DNA from: Pseudofrankia saprophytica
GTDB taxonomy: Bacteria; Actinomycetota; Actinomycetes; Frankiales; Frankiaceae
Direction: 5' to 3'
Length of the DNA stretch: 64,000 bases
Assembly (NCBI RefSeq): GCF_000235425.2
Contig: NZ_KI912266.1
Coordinates: 3,539,671 to 3,603,670 of the forward strand
A program made the translations under genes and the position numbers. Shown one piece after another: positions 52,044 to 60,341 of the stretch. The notes under the pieces were generated by a model. The model did not search any database. It was not told the DNA's origin and was given only the letters and a program-made list of their open reading frames with translations. Position 1 is the stretch's first letter; every line of letters begins with the position of its first letter.

Positions 52044-55000
52044 TTACGGTCCGGCATGAATGTGCGACGCCCACGCTGACGGTCGTGAATACTGCTCCTG
52101 GAGCATACGAAGCGCCGCGTCATGAACGGCGTTGGCGACGCCCTCTCCTGCCGCGAGCCCGTCGTAGACGCGGCGGGTGATCCTCGCGGCGTATACGTCG
52201 TTGACCGGCCAGAGGGTACCGATCACATGGCGGTAGCCGGCGAGCTGGAACGCGGACGCCAGATGTATCGCCTCGTCGGTCAGCCGACGAGGCGACTGCG
52301 CCGTCGAACAGGCGGCCAGAAATGCGAGGTGTGCGTCCTCCAACCGCAGCCGAGCGACATCCACGACGGTGAGGGGCCGCTGCTGGTGATCTGCGAGCAG
52401 CAGCTTGCTGGCAGAGGGGTCCAGCGGGTCGACCTGCGCGTGACAGGAGAAATGGACTGACGGGGCTGACCGCATCGCGGTCAGCACGGACGTACGGCTC
52501 GCGTCGTTCCCGGTCAGTACCAGGGCGGAAGGGAACCGGCTACGAATGTCGTCCGCCTCGCTGGCGGCCCCGGGCAGGTCGGGCTCGTCGGGAGTTGTGG
52601 GCATGGCGACCGCGAGCACGCGGGGTACCACGTCACCGACGTGCCCGTCGACGCTGTCCAGGGCGCCACTGACGCTGTCGCCCGCCGATCGTTGGGAACG
52701 CACACGTCGTGAGTATGCGAGGGCTCGAAGGGTCGGGGTGTACGAGGAGATCGCGCGGGTGATCACCGACTCCGCGATGCCGGATCCCATGTCATGGCGT
52801 CCGGCGGCGTGCAGGGGGAGAAGCGACACCGGTCCCGATGGGCACCACCAGACCCGAGGCCATGGTTCGCCCGGCTCGGGAGCCGCCGTGAGGCCCAGCC
52901 GGGCGAGGACGCTGCTTGCCAGGTCGTCCCACAGCCAGCGCAACGTGTCGGACAGTCGTTGCTCCGCCTGCCGGCTGGAACTGGAATCAGCGTGCGACCG
53001 GGCCCTGTCGTCGACAAAGGCCGCCACCCGTTCCTCGACCGCCTCGACGTTCAGCCTTGGCAAAGGCACTGGTTCCTGCACCTCCCCGCCGCTCACGATC
53101 AGCGCATAGGAACCGAACGCGGATATCGCCACGATCACAACGTGGCCACCGGTCGAGACGGCCGCCAGCTCGTGCACCGACCATGGGCGCAGGAAGTCGC
53201 CGAAATCCGGCGAGGCTCGAATCTCTGTGACGATCTTTCCGAATGCCTCGACGAGTTCGCGGCGCTGCTCGTCACGGCGACGGGACCAGACGGCACGGAG
53301 GTCGGCAGCGTCAACACCGTCGGTCCCGGCACCCGCGTCGGCGCCGGGCACGATGCTCGGCTGGGCGACGCTGTCCGCCTGGTCCAGCTCGTCCCGGAGG
53401 GCGACGAATCGGCTGGCCAGGGCCGGGTGACGGGCGCGCAGTGCCGTGAGATCGGTGCGAGTGTCCAATGCCTGGCCCAGCAGGACGCCGCGGCCCTGCT
53501 CGAACAGCTCCACCGCCAGGTCCCAACGTCCGGCGTGGACACAGCACACCGCGGCGTCCGTCGCCAGGCCGCCGAAATCCTCCAGGAGGTGCTCCTGGTC
53601 GTCACGGGCAAGGCTGCGCGGCGCCACGAGACCCAGGAACTCCACCGCGAGGGTGAAACCCCGCACCGCCTCGTCCCACCGGCCGTCGGTCGCGGCGGCG
53701 AGTCCCCAGCGCCGGGCCGCGGCGGCCCTTCGTCGTGGCGTGGCGCTCTCGACCCGTGCGGCATCCTGGTAGGCGTTTCTCGCCTCATCCAGATCCTGTC
53801 GCGCGCGGAACCGATCGAACCTCAGCCGCAGGGTGTCGCCGAGATTCGACAGATACAGAGCACGGTCGGGATGGCCGTCGGGGGTGGCGGCCACCGCGGC
53901 CCGGATCGTCTCGGCGGCCTCGTCGAGGTCGCCTCGCTCACCGGTCCGCTCGAAGCGGGCCTGTAGACAGATACCAAGGTTCGACGAGTGGCCCGCGAGG
54001 CCCGGGCCGCCGAGAGGGCTCGCGGCGACCGCCGCCCGGGCCGCCTCGACCGCGTCGTCCAGGTCGGAGGCATTGGCGGCGCTCGCCGAGCGCTGGAGAA
54101 GCGTGGTGCTGAGGTTCGTCAGATATAACGCGCGGTCTCCATGATCCTCGGGGGTCGCGGACACTGCCGCTCGGTCCGTCTCCACCGCTTCGTCCAGGTC
54201 CTGCTGGCTTTCGGTCCGCGCGGACCGGATACTCAGGGCGATTCCGAGATTCGACAGGTGGGTGGCGAGGTTCGCATGGTCCGTCGGTGTCGCGGCGACC
54301 GCCGCCCTGCCCGCCTCGACCGCCTGGTTCAGATCGGCCAAAGCGCCATTGTGTTCAAACCGGCTCCACAGCCGGTTTCCTAGATTCGACAGGTACATGG
54401 CGCGGTCGGGATAGTGAACCGGGCATGCGGCGACGGCCTCCCGGGCCGCCTCGACCCCCTCGTCCAGATCCTGGAGCACCGCGGTCCGGTCGAACCGGGC
54501 CTGCAGAGCGGTCGACAGATTCGACAGGTACATGGGGCGGCTGGTGTGATCCTCGGGGGTGGCGGCCAATGCCGCCCGGGCCCTCTCGACAGCCTCGTCC
54601 AGGTCCGCCCGGCTCCTGTCCCACGCCGCCCGGGTCCACAGCAAGTTGCTGAGGTTCGTCAGGTACTTGGGGTGGTTGGCGCCGCGAACGGCGCTGGCGG
54701 CCACGGCCGCCCGTGCCCGTTCGACGGCCTCGTCCAGGTCCGGCCGCTCCCCGGCCCGTTCGAATCTGCGACGCAGGGTGATGCTGAGGGCGGACAGGCG
54801 CAGGGCGTGGTCGGGATGACCCTGGGCGCTGGCGGCCACCGCTGCCCGGGCCAGCTCGATCGATTCGTCCAGATAGGGCAGACCATCGGCACGCTCGTAC
54901 CGAGTGAGCAGGAAGATACTCAGATTGGCCAGGATCGACGGGCGGTCGGCGTGGTCGGCGGGTGCGGTGACCAGCGCCGCCCGTGCCGTCTCGATGGCCT

Positions 55001-55421
55001 CGCCGAGGATTTCCAGGCCCCCGTCCCATTCGAACCTGAGCCACAGCGCGCCGCCCAGATTCGACAGGTATTTGCAGCGGTTGGGGTCGGTTTCCCTGGC
55101 GGTCGTGACCGCCTCCCTCATCAATTCGATGGCCTCGTCCAACTGAGGCATGCCAGGAGTGCGCTCGGACTGGTCCTGCAGGGCGAGGCCGAGATCCGAC
55201 AGCCACCGGGCCCGGTCCGGATGATCCGGCCCCCCGGCCGCCAACGCCTCCCGAAGCAGCCGCACGGACTTGTCCAGCTTCCGGTCGTCACCGTGTCGAA
55301 TTCCCTCGCGAAGCAGCCGCCCGGCCCCGGCCGCACTGTCCACGGCGATCGAGCGATCGAGTCGTTCCTGAAACCGGAGCAACCGTTCCTGCGTCCGTAT
55401 GAGCCGCGCCCGAACCCCCAT
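52044..55421 (-). CDS. TPR-repeat protein with C-terminal CHAT protease domain (CHAT 3)
   Basis: 1125 residues. A short basic N-terminus (MGVRARLIRTQERLLRFQER) is followed by about eleven 46-residue TPR-like units (about 60-590) of the form DHxDRPxYLSNLxxxLWxRF, LADLDEAVExARAAVAA. The CHAT domain (about 820-1125) has His994 in HFSCHAQVDP, where the usual Gly after His is Ala, and Cys1038 in LAACSTAQSPR in place of SACET. The dyad is intact but the pocket residues differ from CHAT 1 and 2, so substrate choice may differ. It faces the CATRA pair (convergent, 112-base gap). The last residues SAWASHIHAGP are nearly identical in all three CHAT proteins of the window. Confidence 0.9.
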   Translation of the reverse strand: MGVRARLIRTQERLLRFQERLDRSIAVDSAAGAGRLLREGIRHGDDRKLDKSVRLLREALAAGGPDHPDRARWLSDLGLALQDQSERTPGMPQLDEAIELMREAVTTARETDPNRCKYLSNLGGALWLRFEWDGGLEILGEAIETARAALVTAPADHADRPSILANLSIFLLTRYERADGLPYLDESIELARAAVAASAQGHPDHALRLSALSITLRRRFERAGERPDLDEAVERARAAVAASAVRGANHPKYLTNLSNLLWTRAAWDRSRADLDEAVERARAALAATPEDHTSRPMYLSNLSTALQARFDRTAVLQDLDEGVEAAREAVAACPVHYPDRAMYLSNLGNRLWSRFEHNGALADLNQAVEAGRAAVAATPTDHANLATHLSNLGIALSIRSARTESQQDLDEAVETDRAAVSATPEDHGDRALYLTNLSTTLLQRSASAANASDLDDAVEAARAAVAASPLGGPGLAGHSSNLGICLQARFERTGERGDLDEAAETIRAAVAATPDGHPDRALYLSNLGDTLRLRFDRFRARQDLDEARNAYQDAARVESATPRRRAAAARRWGLAAATDGRWDEAVRGFTLAVEFLGLVAPRSLARDDQEHLLEDFGGLATDAAVCCVHAGRWDLAVELFEQGRGVLLGQALDTRTDLTALRARHPALASRFVALRDELDQADSVAQPSIVPGADAGAGTDGVDAADLRAVWSRRRDEQRRELVEAFGKIVTEIRASPDFGDFLRPWSVHELAAVSTGGHVVIVAISAFGSYALIVSGGEVQEPVPLPRLNVEAVEERVAAFVDDRARSHADSSSSRQAEQRLSDTLRWLWDDLASSVLARLGLTAAPEPGEPWPRVWWCPSGPVSLLPLHAAGRHDMGSGIAESVITRAISSYTPTLRALAYSRRVRSQRSAGDSVSGALDSVDGHVGDVVPRVLAVAMPTTPDEPDLPGAASEADDIRSRFPSALVLTGNDASRTSVLTAMRSAPSVHFSCHAQVDPLDPSASKLLLADHQQRPLTVVDVARLRLEDAHLAFLAACSTAQSPRRLTDEAIHLASAFQLAGYRHVIGTLWPVNDVYAARITRRVYDGLAAGEGVANAVHDAALRMLQEQYSRPSAWASHIHAGP

Positions 55422-55489
55422 GCCTGCATGCCATCACCTGGAAGGCGGTCCGGTACAGGAATGCGGAGATCTGTTTCTCACCCGCCGCT

Positions 55490-55931
55490 GTGAATATGCG
55501 ACGACCGGGCGTGGGAGCAGCGGGAGGACAAGCTCGGCCTCCAGCTCGGCTCCTGGCAGATCGGCGAGCCCCGGTGCCGAGGGCATGGTCACCAGCACGC
55601 CCACCACTCGGACCGTGCCGGTCGGAGCGGCGGCGGGCGTGCGTGAGCGCTCGCACGGTGGGCGTGTAGGACGACACCACCCGGTCGAGCACCGTTTCCG
55701 GACTGGCGGACGCGCGGGTCTCGTGCCGCCCTGCCGCATGCACCGGAAGGAAGGACAGCAGCCCGGCGGTGCACCACCACACTCGTGGCCACGCGTCGCC
55801 GGCAGGCGGGGGCCGGCCATCGCGGCCTCCGCCTCCGCCATCGCCTCCGGCGCCAGTACCAACGACGGTTCGCCCAGCCGGGCGAACCGCAACAGTCGCC
55901 GTCGCAGGCGCACGAGCGCCAGCCGCCCCAT
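55490..55931 (-). pseudogene. Decayed fourth TPR-CHAT gene
   Basis: Upstream of CHAT 3 on the same strand. From 55931 one frame reads MGRLALVRLRRRLLRFARLG and EPSLVLAPEAMAEAEAAMA, homologous to the start of CHAT 2 (RLVRFLRYRNPATVLGPKAV). A second frame then reads PRVWWCTAGLLSFLPVHAAG and ETVLDRVVSSYTPTVRALTH, the first part of a CHAT domain. The first frame resumes with VRVVGVLVTMPSAPGLADLP and GAELEAELVLPLLPR. So the TPR array is deleted, at least two frameshifts are present, and the catalytic His/Cys half is lost. Its 3' limit is vague. Expressed product is unlikely. Confidence 0.8.
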
Positions 55932-56113
55932 CCGCACCCCCGTCCCGGACCGGCCGCCCCGGCGCCGGCGCCTTTCGCTGGCCCGGGCACCGCCTCGGCC
56001 GCAGGACGCCACCGCCGGCACGATCATCGCGCGCGGCACCGATCGAACAGTGAAACCGCAGGCCACGCCCCCAAATCGGGTCTTGGCTCGCTACAGGCTC
56101 CGGTCGGTGCCCG

Positions 56114-57427
56114 TCAGATGACCTGAAGGACGACCGGTCTGCCGGGCGGCGCGGACTCGGACACCCGGAACGCGTCCCGGACGAGATCGACGGGCGGTTC
56201 GACACCGTGGCGATGGTGGATGACGGCCAGCGGCTCGCCGATCGACACGTGGTCTCCCACCCGGTGGCGCAGCACGACCCCGGCCGAGTGGTCCAGCGGT
56301 CCGCCCTTGACGAGCCGGCCCGCGCCGACCCTAATCGCGGCCGTGCCGATGGCGCGTGGGTCGATGTCCTCGAGGTAGCCCTCGCGGTCGGCGACGACCT
56401 GCTCACGACAGTCGGCGGTGGGCAGCCCGCCCGGCTCCGCCAGCGCGTCCGGCTCGGCTCCCTGCGCCACCGCCCAGCGGAGGAACCGTTCGTAGCCCTC
56501 GCCGCTGGCCAGGACCGCGTTCACCTTCCGCTCGGCCGCCTCCGGCGCGAGGTCCGGCTCGGCGCCGCGCAGCATCAGGGCGGCGATCGTGCGGCACACC
56601 TCCGTCAGCCCCGGCACCTCCCGTCCCCTGAGCACGTCCAGCGCCTCGCTCACCTCGAGCGCGTTGCCGACCGCGTACCCGAGCGGCTGGCTCATGTCCG
56701 TCAGCACGGCCCGGCAACGCAGGCCGGCCCCGGTGGCGACCTCGACCATCAGCCGCGCCAGGTCGAGCGCCCGATCCTGGTCCGGGAGCAGCGCACCCGC
56801 ACCCGTCTTCACGTCGAACAGCACGCCATGCGCACCCACGGCGATCTTCTTGCTGACGATGCTGGCCGCGATCAGCGGAAGGCTGTCGACCGTTCCGGTG
56901 ACGTCCCGCAGCGCGTACGTCACCTTGTCGCCGGGGGTCAGGCGCGCGCTCTGCCCGGTGATGACCATCCCCACCTGGTCGACCAGGCGATAGATCTCGT
57001 CGGCGTCGAGCTCCAGCCGCAGCCCACGAATGGACTCCATCTTGTCAATCGTGCCTCCGGTGAGGCCCAGGCCGCGTCCGCTCATCTTCGCCACCGCCAC
57101 CCCGCACGCCGCGACCAACGGCACGACGACGAGACTCACCGTGTCGCCCACGCCGCCGGTGCTGTGCTTGTCGAGCACCAGCCGCCCGGTCCTGGCGAAG
57201 TCGAGCGTCTCACCGCCGGTCACGTAGGCCCGGGTAAGGGCCACGGTCTCCGCCCGCGACAGTCCTCGACAGGCCACCGTCGCCAGCCAGGCGGACATCT
57301 GGTAGTCGGGGATCCGACCGGCGACGAAGTCCGCCACAAGCCGCTCGATCTCGTCCGCGGCCAGGGCGCTCCCCATCCTGGTGCGGACGACGGCGTCGAT
57401 GGCGCGCGCCGAGGCGTCAGCATTCAT
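56114..57427 (-). CDS. deoA: Thymidine / pyrimidine-nucleoside phosphorylase
   Basis: 437 residues. LVLDKHSTGGVGDTVSLVVV is the family signature. KMSGRGLGLTGGTIDKMESI, GQSARLTPGDKVTYALRDVT and SIVSKKIAVGAHGVLFDVKT carry the phosphate and pyrimidine contacts. It splits thymidine (or uridine) with phosphate to the base and deoxyribose-1-phosphate. The C-terminal 80 residues are the usual lobe. ATG 57427 follows GGAGACTGAGTGC; the larger open frame above is a shadow across the next gene. The deo partner genes are not seen nearby. Confidence 0.92.
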   Translation of the reverse strand: MNADASARAIDAVVRTRMGSALAADEIERLVADFVAGRIPDYQMSAWLATVACRGLSRAETVALTRAYVTGGETLDFARTGRLVLDKHSTGGVGDTVSLVVVPLVAACGVAVAKMSGRGLGLTGGTIDKMESIRGLRLELDADEIYRLVDQVGMVITGQSARLTPGDKVTYALRDVTGTVDSLPLIAASIVSKKIAVGAHGVLFDVKTGAGALLPDQDRALDLARLMVEVATGAGLRCRAVLTDMSQPLGYAVGNALEVSEALDVLRGREVPGLTEVCRTIAALMLRGAEPDLAPEAAERKVNAVLASGEGYERFLRWAVAQGAEPDALAEPGGLPTADCREQVVADREGYLEDIDPRAIGTAAIRVGAGRLVKGGPLDHSAGVVLRHRVGDHVSIGEPLAVIHHRHGVEPPVDLVRDAFRVSESAPPGRPVVLQVI

Positions 57428-57561: not shown

Positions 57562-58113
57562 TCACCAGTCGGTGGCCAGGGCGATGCCGAACAGGACGAA
57601 GCCGGCGCTGAAGACGACGAGGAAGACGGCCAGCCCGAGACCGACGTTGGTCACCTCGCTGGCCGCCCGGACCGAGTGAGGGTCGCCCGGGTGGTAGACG
57701 AGCGCGACGGCCGACGGAGGCTTGTGCCTGCCCGAGACCGTCTCGATCTGGGTGGCGCCGTCCTGGTCGGTGAAGCGGACCCGCGTGTACTCGTCCGTCG
57801 TCGTGGTCGTCGTCGTGTTTCCGTTGGCGTCCGTGCTGGTCGAGGTGTAGGTCTCGGTCCAGGTGCGCAGCGCGGTGCCGGTCGTCCGCATTCCGTTCGA
57901 CCGCAGCTCGACGATGTCGACCACGTTCCAGACCGCGACCGCCAGGAACAGCACCGCGAGCCCCATCCAGACCAGGCCGAACAGTGCCTCTCCCACCCCG
58001 GAGAGCGACATCCACCCGCGCCGGCGATACCTTCGCCGCGCCCGGGCGGCGGCGAGCCGCCGGGTGAACGAGCGCGGCCTGTCGCCGCTGCCGGTGGGGG
58101 TGTATGGCGGCAC
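57562..58113 (-). CDS. DUF3592-like membrane protein
   Basis: 183 residues with two membrane helices (about 40-65 and 152-180) flanking a soluble extracytoplasmic loop. In the loop, GTALRTWTETYTSTSTDANG, a run of seven Thr, EYTRVRFTDQDG and VALVYHPGDPHSV match the DUF3592 pattern (a small beta domain between two helices). The basic N-terminus (SFTRRLAAARARRRYRRRG) would stay inside the cell. GTG 58113 is the start; the leader (GGTGAGCT) is weak. Function unknown. It is upstream of deoA on the same strand with a 134-base gap. Confidence 0.75.
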   Translation of the reverse strand: MPPYTPTGSGDRPRSFTRRLAAARARRRYRRRGWMSLSGVGEALFGLVWMGLAVLFLAVAVWNVVDIVELRSNGMRTTGTALRTWTETYTSTSTDANGNTTTTTTTDEYTRVRFTDQDGATQIETVSGRHKPPSAVALVYHPGDPHSVRAASEVTNVGLGLAVFLVVFSAGFVLFGIALATDW

Positions 58114-58583
58114 GACAGCTCACCGTCCCATGCTCGGACGGTGAGCTGTGTCGATCACCGACATGTGTGCTTATGGGCGGAGGTAGATCGTAACCGTCCA
58201 GGTGCTGCCGGACAGTGACGTATCCGGCACCGGACACCGCGGTCCGCGCGCGGACCGGGGCCGTGGAGCGGCCCCGGTCCGCGCGCGGACCGCGCGGGCG
58301 GATCTCCTGCCCGAATGCGTCGCCGTTACTCCAGTGGGTCGGCTGGGGCGCGAGGGGGGCCGTTCCAACGTGCACGTCACGACCCCGTCCGGGAGGGCGC
58401 CGGGCCTCAGCGCTCAGCCAGGCGACCCTCGTGCCCGGAGGTCGCTACCCGGCGAGGGCCACTGTGGGGCTTCATGAGGGGCAGGACGGCCACCGTCAGC
58501 CCTGCGCACTCGCAGGCCGACCGACCCGGGCCGTGCGTAGCGATCATTCGGCCGGACCGTGACGTGACGGGAGGTGCCTCGCG
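58114..58583. other. Intergenic region with a large perfect hairpin
   Basis: 470 bases between the divergent DUF3592 and small-ORF genes. The main content is the inverted repeat at 58238-58294. The remaining sequence shows no supported gene. Confidence 0.55.
58238..58294. repeat. 26-bp perfect inverted repeat with nested 16-bp palindromes
   Basis: Arms 58238-58263 and 58269-58294 are exact inverted copies around a 5-base centre (TGGAG). Each arm contains GGTCCGCGCGCGGACC, itself a perfect 16-bp palindrome (58241-58256 and 58276-58291, 35 bases apart). It could be a bidirectional terminator, a cruciform-forming site, or a double operator. It lies 125 bases upstream of the DUF3592 start and 290 before the first small ORF. 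Confidence 0.85.
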
Positions 58584-58727
58584 GTGGATGAGGAGTCGTG
58601 GAAGGTGTGGGTCCGGCGGTATGGCCTGCGGCCCGCCGCGATGGATCTCGGCGAGGTGCGGGACATGGTGGGTGCCGAGACGGACCTTGGCTGGGACGCC
58701 GACGTCGAGCTGATGCGGGTGGGCTGA
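58584..58727 (+). CDS. Small protein of unknown function
   Basis: 47 residues from GTG 58584, preceded by GGGAGG nine bases away. The sequence (VDEESWKVWVRRYGLRPAAM, then DLGEVRDMVGAETDLGWDAD) is acidic with three Trp and looks like real coding DNA. TGA at 58725-58727 is followed at once by GTG of the next ORF in the same frame, so the two might once have been one gene. I do not recognise either. Confidence 0.5.
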   Translation: MDEESWKVWVRRYGLRPAAMDLGEVRDMVGAETDLGWDADVELMRVG

Positions 58728-59003
58728 GTGCAGCTGTTCAACGCCGGCGCGCTGGCGGACGTCCTGACGGTCTGGGGGGCCAAGGAGACCAACTTCGACG
58801 CGCACTGTTCGATCGATGTCCAGCTGCTCTGCGGCGCTGGCCTCGATGAGGCGAAGGCCCACCCGTCGGCGGCATGGGCGGACTCCGAGGACGCGGCCAG
58901 GGCGCTCGAATACCTCCTCGAGTGCGAGGCGGCCGGAGACTTCGAGAACTTCAACGTCGAGCGTTGGTCCCGCGCGGTGGCGGACTACTACGAAACCAGC
59001 TGA
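58728..59003 (+). CDS. Small acidic protein of unknown function
   Basis: 91 residues from GTG 58728, acidic, with no membrane segment. LFNAGALADVLTVWGAKETN and ALEYLLECEAAGDFENFNVE suggest a small alpha/beta protein. It continues the frame of the 47-residue ORF after a single TGA. It may be translated by re-initiation, or the pair may be a gene split by a nonsense change. There is no similarity I can name. It ends about 100 bases before the convergent MFS gene. Confidence 0.5.
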   Translation: MQLFNAGALADVLTVWGAKETNFDAHCSIDVQLLCGAGLDEAKAHPSAAWADSEDAARALEYLLECEAAGDFENFNVERWSRAVADYYETS

Positions 59004-59105
59004 GCGGCGACGTCCCGATGGCTGCGCGGACGCTGTTCGACAGCGAGACGCCCGCGTATGGGGTGACGCATGTCGAGCTGGGCGTTCAGCGGCTGCGTCG
59101 TCGGG

Positions 59106-60341
59106 TCACCGCGACACTGGCTCGGGAACCGGTCCGATCGTTCTCGCGGTGGCGCGGCGGTCGAGAGCGAAGCTGATCGTCGCCAAGGTCAGGCCGACGG
59201 CGCCGAGGGCCGCGCCGACCCAGGCGGGGGCACGGTAGCCCAGGCCGGCCGCGATCACGACGCTGCCGACGGCCGCGCCCAGGCTGTTGGCGATGTTCAT
59301 GGCCGACTGGTTCACCGCCGCCCCCATCAGCTGGGCGCCGGGCGCCACGGCGATCAGCAGCGACTGGAGGGCCGGGGCCAGGAACAGGCTGGTCGCGCCG
59401 AGCAGGAAGGCGGCCGTGAACAGCCCGGCCGCGGTGCTCGCTGCCAGCCCGAAGAAGGCCACCGCGGCGATCATGCCGGTGAAGCCGAGCAGTGTGGCGC
59501 GGTGCAGGTTCCGGTCGGCGTACATACCGCCCAGCGCATTGCCCACGGTCATGCCGAGCCCGACCGTGACCAGCACCCACGCCACCGTGCCGGGCGGCAG
59601 ACCGGCCACCGAGGTGGTCACCGGCGCGATGTAGCTGTCCACGGCGAAGAATCCGGCGAACCCGACCGCGGCGGTCACGGCGACCAGCCACACCTGCCGT
59701 CGGCGCAGCGCCCGCAGCTCGGCCGCGGGTGACCCGCCGGCGGCAGGCGTCTCCGGCACGGTGGCCGCCACGGCCAGCAGCGCGAGCAGGAAGACCGCGG
59801 CGATGGCCAGGTAGGCGACCCGCCAGCTGGCCGCCTGCCCCAGCCAGGTGACCAGCGGCACGCCGGCCACGTTGGCCACCGTCAGCCCGCTGAGCACGGC
59901 GGCGAACCCTCGTCCCTCGTTGCCCGGCCCCATCAGCGACGCGGCCAGCAGCCCGGCCGCCCCGAAGTACGCGCCGTGCGGCACACCGGCGACGAACCGG
60001 GCCACCAGCACCAGCTCGAACGTCGGGGCCAGCGCCGACACGACGGTGCCGAGCATGAGCAGTACCAGCAGCCCCAGCACCAGCCGCCTGCGAGGCATTC
60101 GGGCGGCGAGCACGGCGATCAGTGGCGCTCCCACCACCACGCCCAGCGCGTACGCGGTGATCATCCAGCCGGCGTGTGCCACCGCGTGCGACGGGGAGCG
60201 GGAGTACTCGGTCTTGAGCACTCCGTGCGCGATCTGTGGCAGCAGCCCGGCCGGCGCGAACTCGGTCAGGCCGATCGCGACGGCGCCGAGGGCCAGAGCG
60301 AGCAGCGCCGACCAGCGGCGCCGAGGGCTGAGATCATCCAC
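59106..60341 (-). CDS. MFS efflux transporter (DHA1, AraJ/YdhP-like)
   Basis: 411 residues with twelve predicted helices. ALALGAVAIGLTEFAPAGLL (helix 1) and GWMITAYALGVVVGAPLIAV (helix 2), followed by ARMPRRRLVLGLL (the loop 2-3 motif) and ARFVAGVPHGAYFGAAGLLA, are typical of DHA1 sugar or drug exporters of the AraJ group. It uses the proton gradient. ATG 60341 lies only about eight bases beyond a good -10 element, so the mRNA is probably leaderless. It is divergent from the ROK regulator, its likely controller. Confidence 0.87.
   Translation of the reverse strand: MDDLSPRRRWSALLALALGAVAIGLTEFAPAGLLPQIAHGVLKTEYSRSPSHAVAHAGWMITAYALGVVVGAPLIAVLAARMPRRRLVLGLLVLLMLGTVVSALAPTFELVLVARFVAGVPHGAYFGAAGLLAASLMGPGNEGRGFAAVLSGLTVANVAGVPLVTWLGQAASWRVAYLAIAAVFLLALLAVAATVPETPAAGGSPAAELRALRRRQVWLVAVTAAVGFAGFFAVDSYIAPVTTSVAGLPPGTVAWVLVTVGLGMTVGNALGGMYADRNLHRATLLGFTGMIAAVAFFGLAASTAAGLFTAAFLLGATSLFLAPALQSLLIAVAPGAQLMGAAVNQSAMNIANSLGAAVGSVVIAAGLGYRAPAWVGAALGAVGLTLATISFALDRRATARTIGPVPEPVSR

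Follow-up and report, generated by a model that had tools for sequence, protein, structure and literature searches.

A 57-base perfect hairpin in Pseudofrankia saprophytica: a candidate orphan of a U-poor, terminator-type class

In the window analysed here, a stretch of 64,000 nt from the genome of Pseudofrankia saprophytica, positions 58238–58294 form a perfect inverted repeat, for which the first-pass annotation had considered a double operator and a mobile hairpin element among other roles. The locus raises the question of what such a structure is, and what it does or once did between the genes that now surround it. Comparison with the other long hairpins of the same genome leads us to favour, with some reserve, an extreme member of a U-poor, I-shaped, terminator-type class that has been orphaned by gene decay.

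Structure and copy number of the hairpin

The repeat finder resolved two arms of 26 nt (58238–58263 and 58269–58294) that are 100 % complementary, 92 % GC and separated by the 5-nt loop TGGAG, which is exactly the 57-base perfect hairpin with a 26-bp stem and a 5-base loop that had been described from the letters. The 16-mer GGTCCGCGCGCGGACC is present once per arm, with a start-to-start distance of 35. The two 16-bp palindromes reported earlier are therefore both present at the spacing claimed, although each in fact extends to an 18-bp palindrome, CGGTCCGCGCGCGGACCG (left copy 58240–58257, right copy 58275–58292, 35 bp centre to centre). Folding of 81 nt as DNA gave z = −8.1 against dinucleotide shuffles, and folding of 73 nt as RNA from both strands gave z = −8.5 and −9.0; in each case 0 of 200 shuffles were equally good, and the predicted RNA fold energy of the 73-nt stretch was about −72 to −75 kcal/mol. 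The 10 nt that follow the hairpin contain one T on the plus strand and three on the minus strand, and the U-rich tract of a canonical rho-independent terminator is absent behind this stem. A search for such terminators (stem plus U-rich tract) in 57900–58800 found none, and Rfam returned sub-threshold matches to the hairpin region, the best by E-value scoring 25.8 bits against a curated cut-off of 40.

Throughout the 9.98-Mb genome, GGTCCGCGCGCGGACC occurs at these two places, and the search for further copies of the 16-bp palindrome that the annotation had recommended returned none beyond the two arms. The exact double palindrome was found in 0 of 392 other genomes of the class, seven congeners included, and gave 0 matches in a collection of species-representative contigs, from which the own genome may be left out; no hairpin of the same sequence was found in the seven congeners. 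The hairpin region also matched weakly in congeners and elsewhere in its own genome (L006–L010, L012, L013 and L015); these matches were set aside as compositional, 0 of 8 forming a hairpin of at least 11 bp at that place. A mobile hairpin element or repeat of REP or MITE type, as had been suggested, might account for the perfect symmetry, and a hairpin repeat with a different sequence does occur in this genome in six copies. Such elements are recognized by several dispersed copies, whereas the present hairpin has a single copy in its own genome and none in the genomes searched, and it has no flanking direct repeats among those of at least 12 bases. A mobile origin was rejected on copy number and on this absence, and is very improbable.

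The six-copy repeat is an observation in its own right. It consists of ATGATCTGGTGGGATTTTCGGAG, a short loop and the complement; the exact stem is found at six places of the own genome (G000:C1:116075, 2239147, 4050530, 7273001 and 7305102, and C2:1130366; L155–L164), each of them outside called genes, and in 0 of the seven congeners. Its appearance is that of a small REP- or MITE-like element specific to the lineage.

The DNA around the 57-base hairpin is equally isolated. Among 34 other genomes of the order, positions 58114–58582 were matched at E ≤ 1e-6 at their right edge only (58529–58582, in one congener), and searches of plasmid and phage collections with 58110–58600 returned nothing at E ≤ 1e-5. 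Both results, together with the broken gene that adjoins the hairpin (see below), are consistent with a neutral, mutational product, in which a quasi-palindrome was perfected and lengthened by replicative template switching in decaying intergenic DNA and has no present function. PMC8794818 describes template switching as able both to generate perfect stems, even in a single event, and to maintain them. An origin of this kind is conceivable but doubtful, and the distribution of long hairpins in the genome bears upon it.

Long perfect hairpins as a class

Sampling of the genome was confined to contig C1, where 100 stretches of 20 kb were taken at even intervals; one of them (L069) overlaps the window and was dropped. 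The 99 stretches used, together with the window, amount to 2.044 Mb and contain 1,600 N. Perfect stems with loops of 3–12 were recorded, and genes were called by a home-made codon-score caller, which picks starts roughly and misjudged one locus (L142). The sample contains 235 stems of at least 11 bp, 97 of at least 14 bp, 31 of at least 18 bp, 16 of at least 20 bp and two of 26 bp. The 57-base hairpin has the joint longest stem of the sample, exceeding 95 of the other 96 stems of at least 14 bp, with one tie. Simulated third-order Markov sequence (6.2 Mb) yielded no stem of at least 14 bp, against the 97 in 2.044 Mb of the own genome; with the shuffles above, this upholds the earlier statement that the structure is far beyond chance. 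A long perfect hairpin in this genome is thus not a product of chance, yet it is a normal feature.

The 97 stems of at least 14 bp fall into convergent gaps (36), tandem gaps (36), divergent gaps (9), genes (14) and stretch ends (2), so that gaps with a gene end hold 72 of the 81 intergenic stems. Divergent gaps hold 9 of the 81 but make up 32 % of the intergenic length (binomial P = 8e-6, with base totals that include L069). A stop codon on the reading strand lies within 120 bp of the stem in 61 of the 72 convergent and tandem cases and within 300 bp in all 72, and 26 of the 31 stems of at least 18 bp are likewise in gaps with a gene end. U tracts are rare in the class: at least five T in the next 10 nt were counted for 5 of 83 hairpin/gene-end pairs (mean 2.1 T). 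The low T count after the 57-base hairpin is therefore typical, since the class is mostly without U tracts. Placement and scarcity of U tracts together give the picture of U-poor 3′-end hairpins. Since the class avoids divergent gaps and genes and favours gene ends, most long hairpins are not neutral, which argues against the mutational origin considered above, although it says little about one orphan. A reservation on the terminator-type reading is that 4 of the 97 stems are copies of a dispersed hairpin repeat and not gene ends as such.

Hairpins of this kind have been described in related bacteria. A Term-seq study of Streptomyces clavuligerus reported fewer than three U in 353 of 535 highly structured 3′ ends (PMC8269248), and in a re-analysis of 13 species the terminator hairpins of Streptomyces exceeded all others in length and stability and had the least U (3–4 U in 10 nt; PMC12207403). 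Perfect inverted repeats are reported to be more than 12-fold enriched after bacterial gene ends (PMC13155455), and I-shaped, U-less terminators located within 50 bp of the stop codon have been reviewed for mycobacteria (PMC12288462). The 57-base hairpin shares with the U-lacking, highly structured ends (HS-U-lack TEPs) described in PMC8269248 a GC-rich stem, a short loop, few U after the stem, a genome of 71 % GC and sibling hairpins at gene ends of the own genome; it differs from them in being known from sequence alone and in having no called gene end nearby. It likewise has no poly-U tail, as in the mycobacterial terminators of PMC12288462, but does not share their distance of at most 50 bp from the stop codon. 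In its shape and its class, it thus resembles the U-lacking structured 3′ ends of Streptomyces, an already known kind of structure. The ability of U-less hairpins to terminate on their own is a matter of dispute, which also counts against the terminator-type reading: the references of PMC12288462 include a study (Czyz et al. 2014) whose title states that the mycobacterial polymerase needs a U-tract.

Neighbouring genes and the orphaned position

The position of the hairpin relative to genes is where it departs from its class. To the left lies a predicted membrane-protein gene on the minus strand (57562–58113), with the start placed by codon score at 58011 or, alternatively, at a GTG at 58113; the hairpin is 124–226 bp upstream of the start. 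The label ‘DUF3592’ given to the gene earlier is unsupported, as neither Pfam nor NCBIfam produced a match above cut-off. Homologues of the gene are found in six genomes besides the own among 35, including a 66 % relative in G009. To the right, the plus-strand ‘small ORF’ of the annotation (58584–59003) is a broken gene copy, 139 aa long in its intact form, with a premature in-frame stop at 58725–58727. The copied stretch, 58535–59010, is 90 % identical over 479 aligned columns to an intact paralogue at 5.62 Mb in the same genome (L011), for the protein of which no family was found in Pfam or NCBIfam. The next gene, on the minus strand, encodes an MFS transporter (59106–60341; gene call and profile match), with homologues in 34 of 34 other genomes and a best identity of 48 % outside the own genome. 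The description of the hairpin as lying upstream of divergent genes thus rests on a broken gene copy, and the neighbours that are intact both read from the minus strand; once the broken copy is set aside, the hairpin occupies a tandem gap between the MFS and membrane-protein genes.

The nearest called minus-strand gene end is the MFS stop (59106), 811 bp from the hairpin, or approximately 335 bp once the 476-bp copied stretch is discounted; by our own gene calls, neither strand has a gene end within 300 bp of it. The remark that the hairpin is not simply behind a gene end is therefore literally correct, but a terminator-type reading still fits the genome class best. The hairpin has the long, stable, GC-rich perfect stem and the short loop of a U-poor terminator, and no U tract follows the stem, but the distance of 811 bp contrasts with the class norm of 120 bp or less (61 of 72). 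As no called stop codon lies where the class would place it, the hairpin is a putative rather than an established member of the U-poor terminator class. In the called gene arrangement the hairpin is one of the nine divergent-gap exceptions among 81, and a second perfect hairpin, with a 14-bp stem and a 7-nt loop (58115–58149; repeat finder), lies 88 bp to its left in the same called divergent gap and is another exception; both count against the terminator-type reading. A study of 13 genomes describes hairpins less than 15 bases apart as acting in clusters (PMC8355165), and at 88 bp the two hairpins are too far apart for a cluster of that description. The terminator-type reading also leaves the 18-bp palindromes of the arms to one side, as a terminator does not need them.

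Among ORFs of at least 90 nt across 58012–58534, a coding-like score was obtained, besides the broken copy, for the minus-strand ORF 58407–58862 alone (152 codons, score 16.1), which is antisense to the broken copy. Were it a genuine gene, the hairpin would follow its stop at a distance of 112 bp, just as is usual for the class. It has no Pfam match, and antisense ORFs above the threshold are frequent, numbering 1328 alongside 1494 called genes; it is unlikely to be a gene served by the hairpin. This ORF and the dispersed-repeat copies among the stems shift the balance slightly to opposite sides and leave the ranking of the readings as it was. To the left, a minus-strand reading shortly before the 14-bp hairpin (…STWTVTIYLRP) resembled a protein end and was considered as a relic gene tail. 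With 24 aa as the query, 76 of 197 genomes of the class yielded a match at E ≤ 1, the own genome among them, and the best E outside it was 0.003. That best match has no stop at its end and coincides in part with an ORF of 533 aa on the opposite strand; of the five matches listed next, four were unconvincing or out of frame, and the candidate was dropped.

The terminator-type reading, which the excess of long stems over simulated sequence, their gene-end bias, their scarcity of U and the broken plus-strand neighbour all support, would imply the following course of events. RNA of either direction would fold into the 26-bp stem, which may stall or release RNA polymerase or, alternatively, may block 3′-to-5′ exonucleases after release by Rho. 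The original gene end would have been lost or displaced in decayed DNA, of which the broken copy now fills 58535–59010, and the hairpin would have been left orphaned between the minus-strand MFS and membrane-protein genes. There, it could still stop minus-strand read-through ahead of the membrane-protein gene and so shield it, and its perfect pairing may have been kept by selection or by template-switch repair. A single hairpin is of little weight on its own, but it does show that any perfect GC-rich hairpin of this genome is to be compared first with the large class of U-less gene-end hairpins; orphaned ones within long ‘divergent’ gaps may be signs of gene decay.

The proximity of both hairpins to the membrane-protein gene also allows a reading as a leader attenuator or RNA-stability structure in the 5′ region of that gene, formed by the 57-base hairpin together with the 14-bp hairpin. 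Two strong tandem hairpins upstream of a start would suit this role, and the closer of them stops one base short of the GTG candidate. Nevertheless, the locus of the 66 % homologue (L017; 3,522 bases) contains no perfect stem of at least 11 bp, no Rfam family reached its curated cut-off, and no sigma-70-type promoter match was found in 57900–58800, with a consensus that covers actinomycete promoters poorly. A leader function is accordingly regarded as improbable. At the loci of the membrane-protein homologues in general (L017–L022), no perfect stem of at least 11 bp was found within 500 bp upstream of the gene, and at L020 a 15-bp stem with a different sequence lies 142 bp beyond the matched end of the homologue.

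The position of the 14-bp hairpin itself merits a separate remark. As its arm ends immediately before the GTG start candidate, the hairpin 58115–58149 could hide the ribosome-binding site of the membrane-protein gene.

The paired palindromes as binding sites

The presence of an 18-bp palindrome in each arm underlies the remaining alternative, in which two identical sites are bound by a dimeric regulator that controls the minus-strand membrane-protein gene, and the hairpin is a by-product of the duplication of a palindrome. The arm palindromes are the longest among the 97 sampled stems: an 18-bp palindrome inside an arm is found in 1 of the 97, as against 174 of 282,546 26-mers of the sample, and 14-bp palindromes in the arm are found in two other sampled stems. 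The distance of 124–226 bp from the gene start would suit an operator, and the two palindromic sites are identical. The genome, moreover, holds an operator-like double-palindrome hairpin elsewhere (L040, 14712–14753, one of the two stems with 14-bp palindromes). On the other hand, the 2.044 Mb contain as many as 293 palindromes of at least 16 bp, the hairpin has no regulator gene next to it, the ROK gene beginning 2.1 kb away, and the centre spacing of 35 bp corresponds to 3.33 helical turns, which does not place the two sites on one face of the helix. The stem runs two pairs outside and six pairs inside the palindromes, which would not be expected from a duplicated site. As for a promoter near the sites, the search of 57900–58800, with its poor coverage of actinomycete promoters, gave no sigma-70-type match.

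With the exact site nowhere else in the genome, near-copies of the 18-bp palindrome with up to three mismatches number 204, compared with 147 for the reversed control. Of the 20 sites with one or two mismatches, 15 were examined, and 14 of these lie in genes and one is intergenic (L152); the gene caller puts 13 in genes, and L142, which it called intergenic, sits in a 526-aa ORF. Further sites or a cognate regulator alongside, by which a regulon would be recognized, were thus not found for this hairpin. The double operator proposed in the first-pass annotation retains its palindromes but gains no support beyond them, and is considered unlikely.

A more elaborate version of the operator reading may also be envisaged, namely a lineage-specific switch in which the two 18-bp sites either bind regulator dimers as linear DNA or extrude as a 26-bp cruciform stem, supercoiling setting the availability of the sites for control of the membrane-protein gene. 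Such a switch would be a long shot. If either the operator or the cruciform reading were true, the locus would offer a useful model of one sequence acting as both binding site and structural switch.

The hairpin L040:14712–14753 deserves mention on its own account. It consists of two 14-bp palindromes, TAGCCGATCGGCTA, which form a hairpin with a 17-bp stem in a divergent gap of 109 bp next to a TetR-family gene, and it is likely to be a double operator. What the two structures share is a palindrome that is present twice and thereby gives rise to a larger hairpin, located upstream of a gene. Unlike L040, however, the 57-base hairpin has no adjacent regulator, its stem exceeds the palindromes, and its gap is long and decayed.

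A further sign of duplication may be present elsewhere in the window. The minus-strand ORF 55288–56406, between a large minus-strand gene (52044–55421) and the thymidine phosphorylase gene, contains phrases that by eye are like the C-terminal part of the large gene (e.g. WPRVWWC…HAAGRH), as if it were a decayed duplicate of part of that gene.
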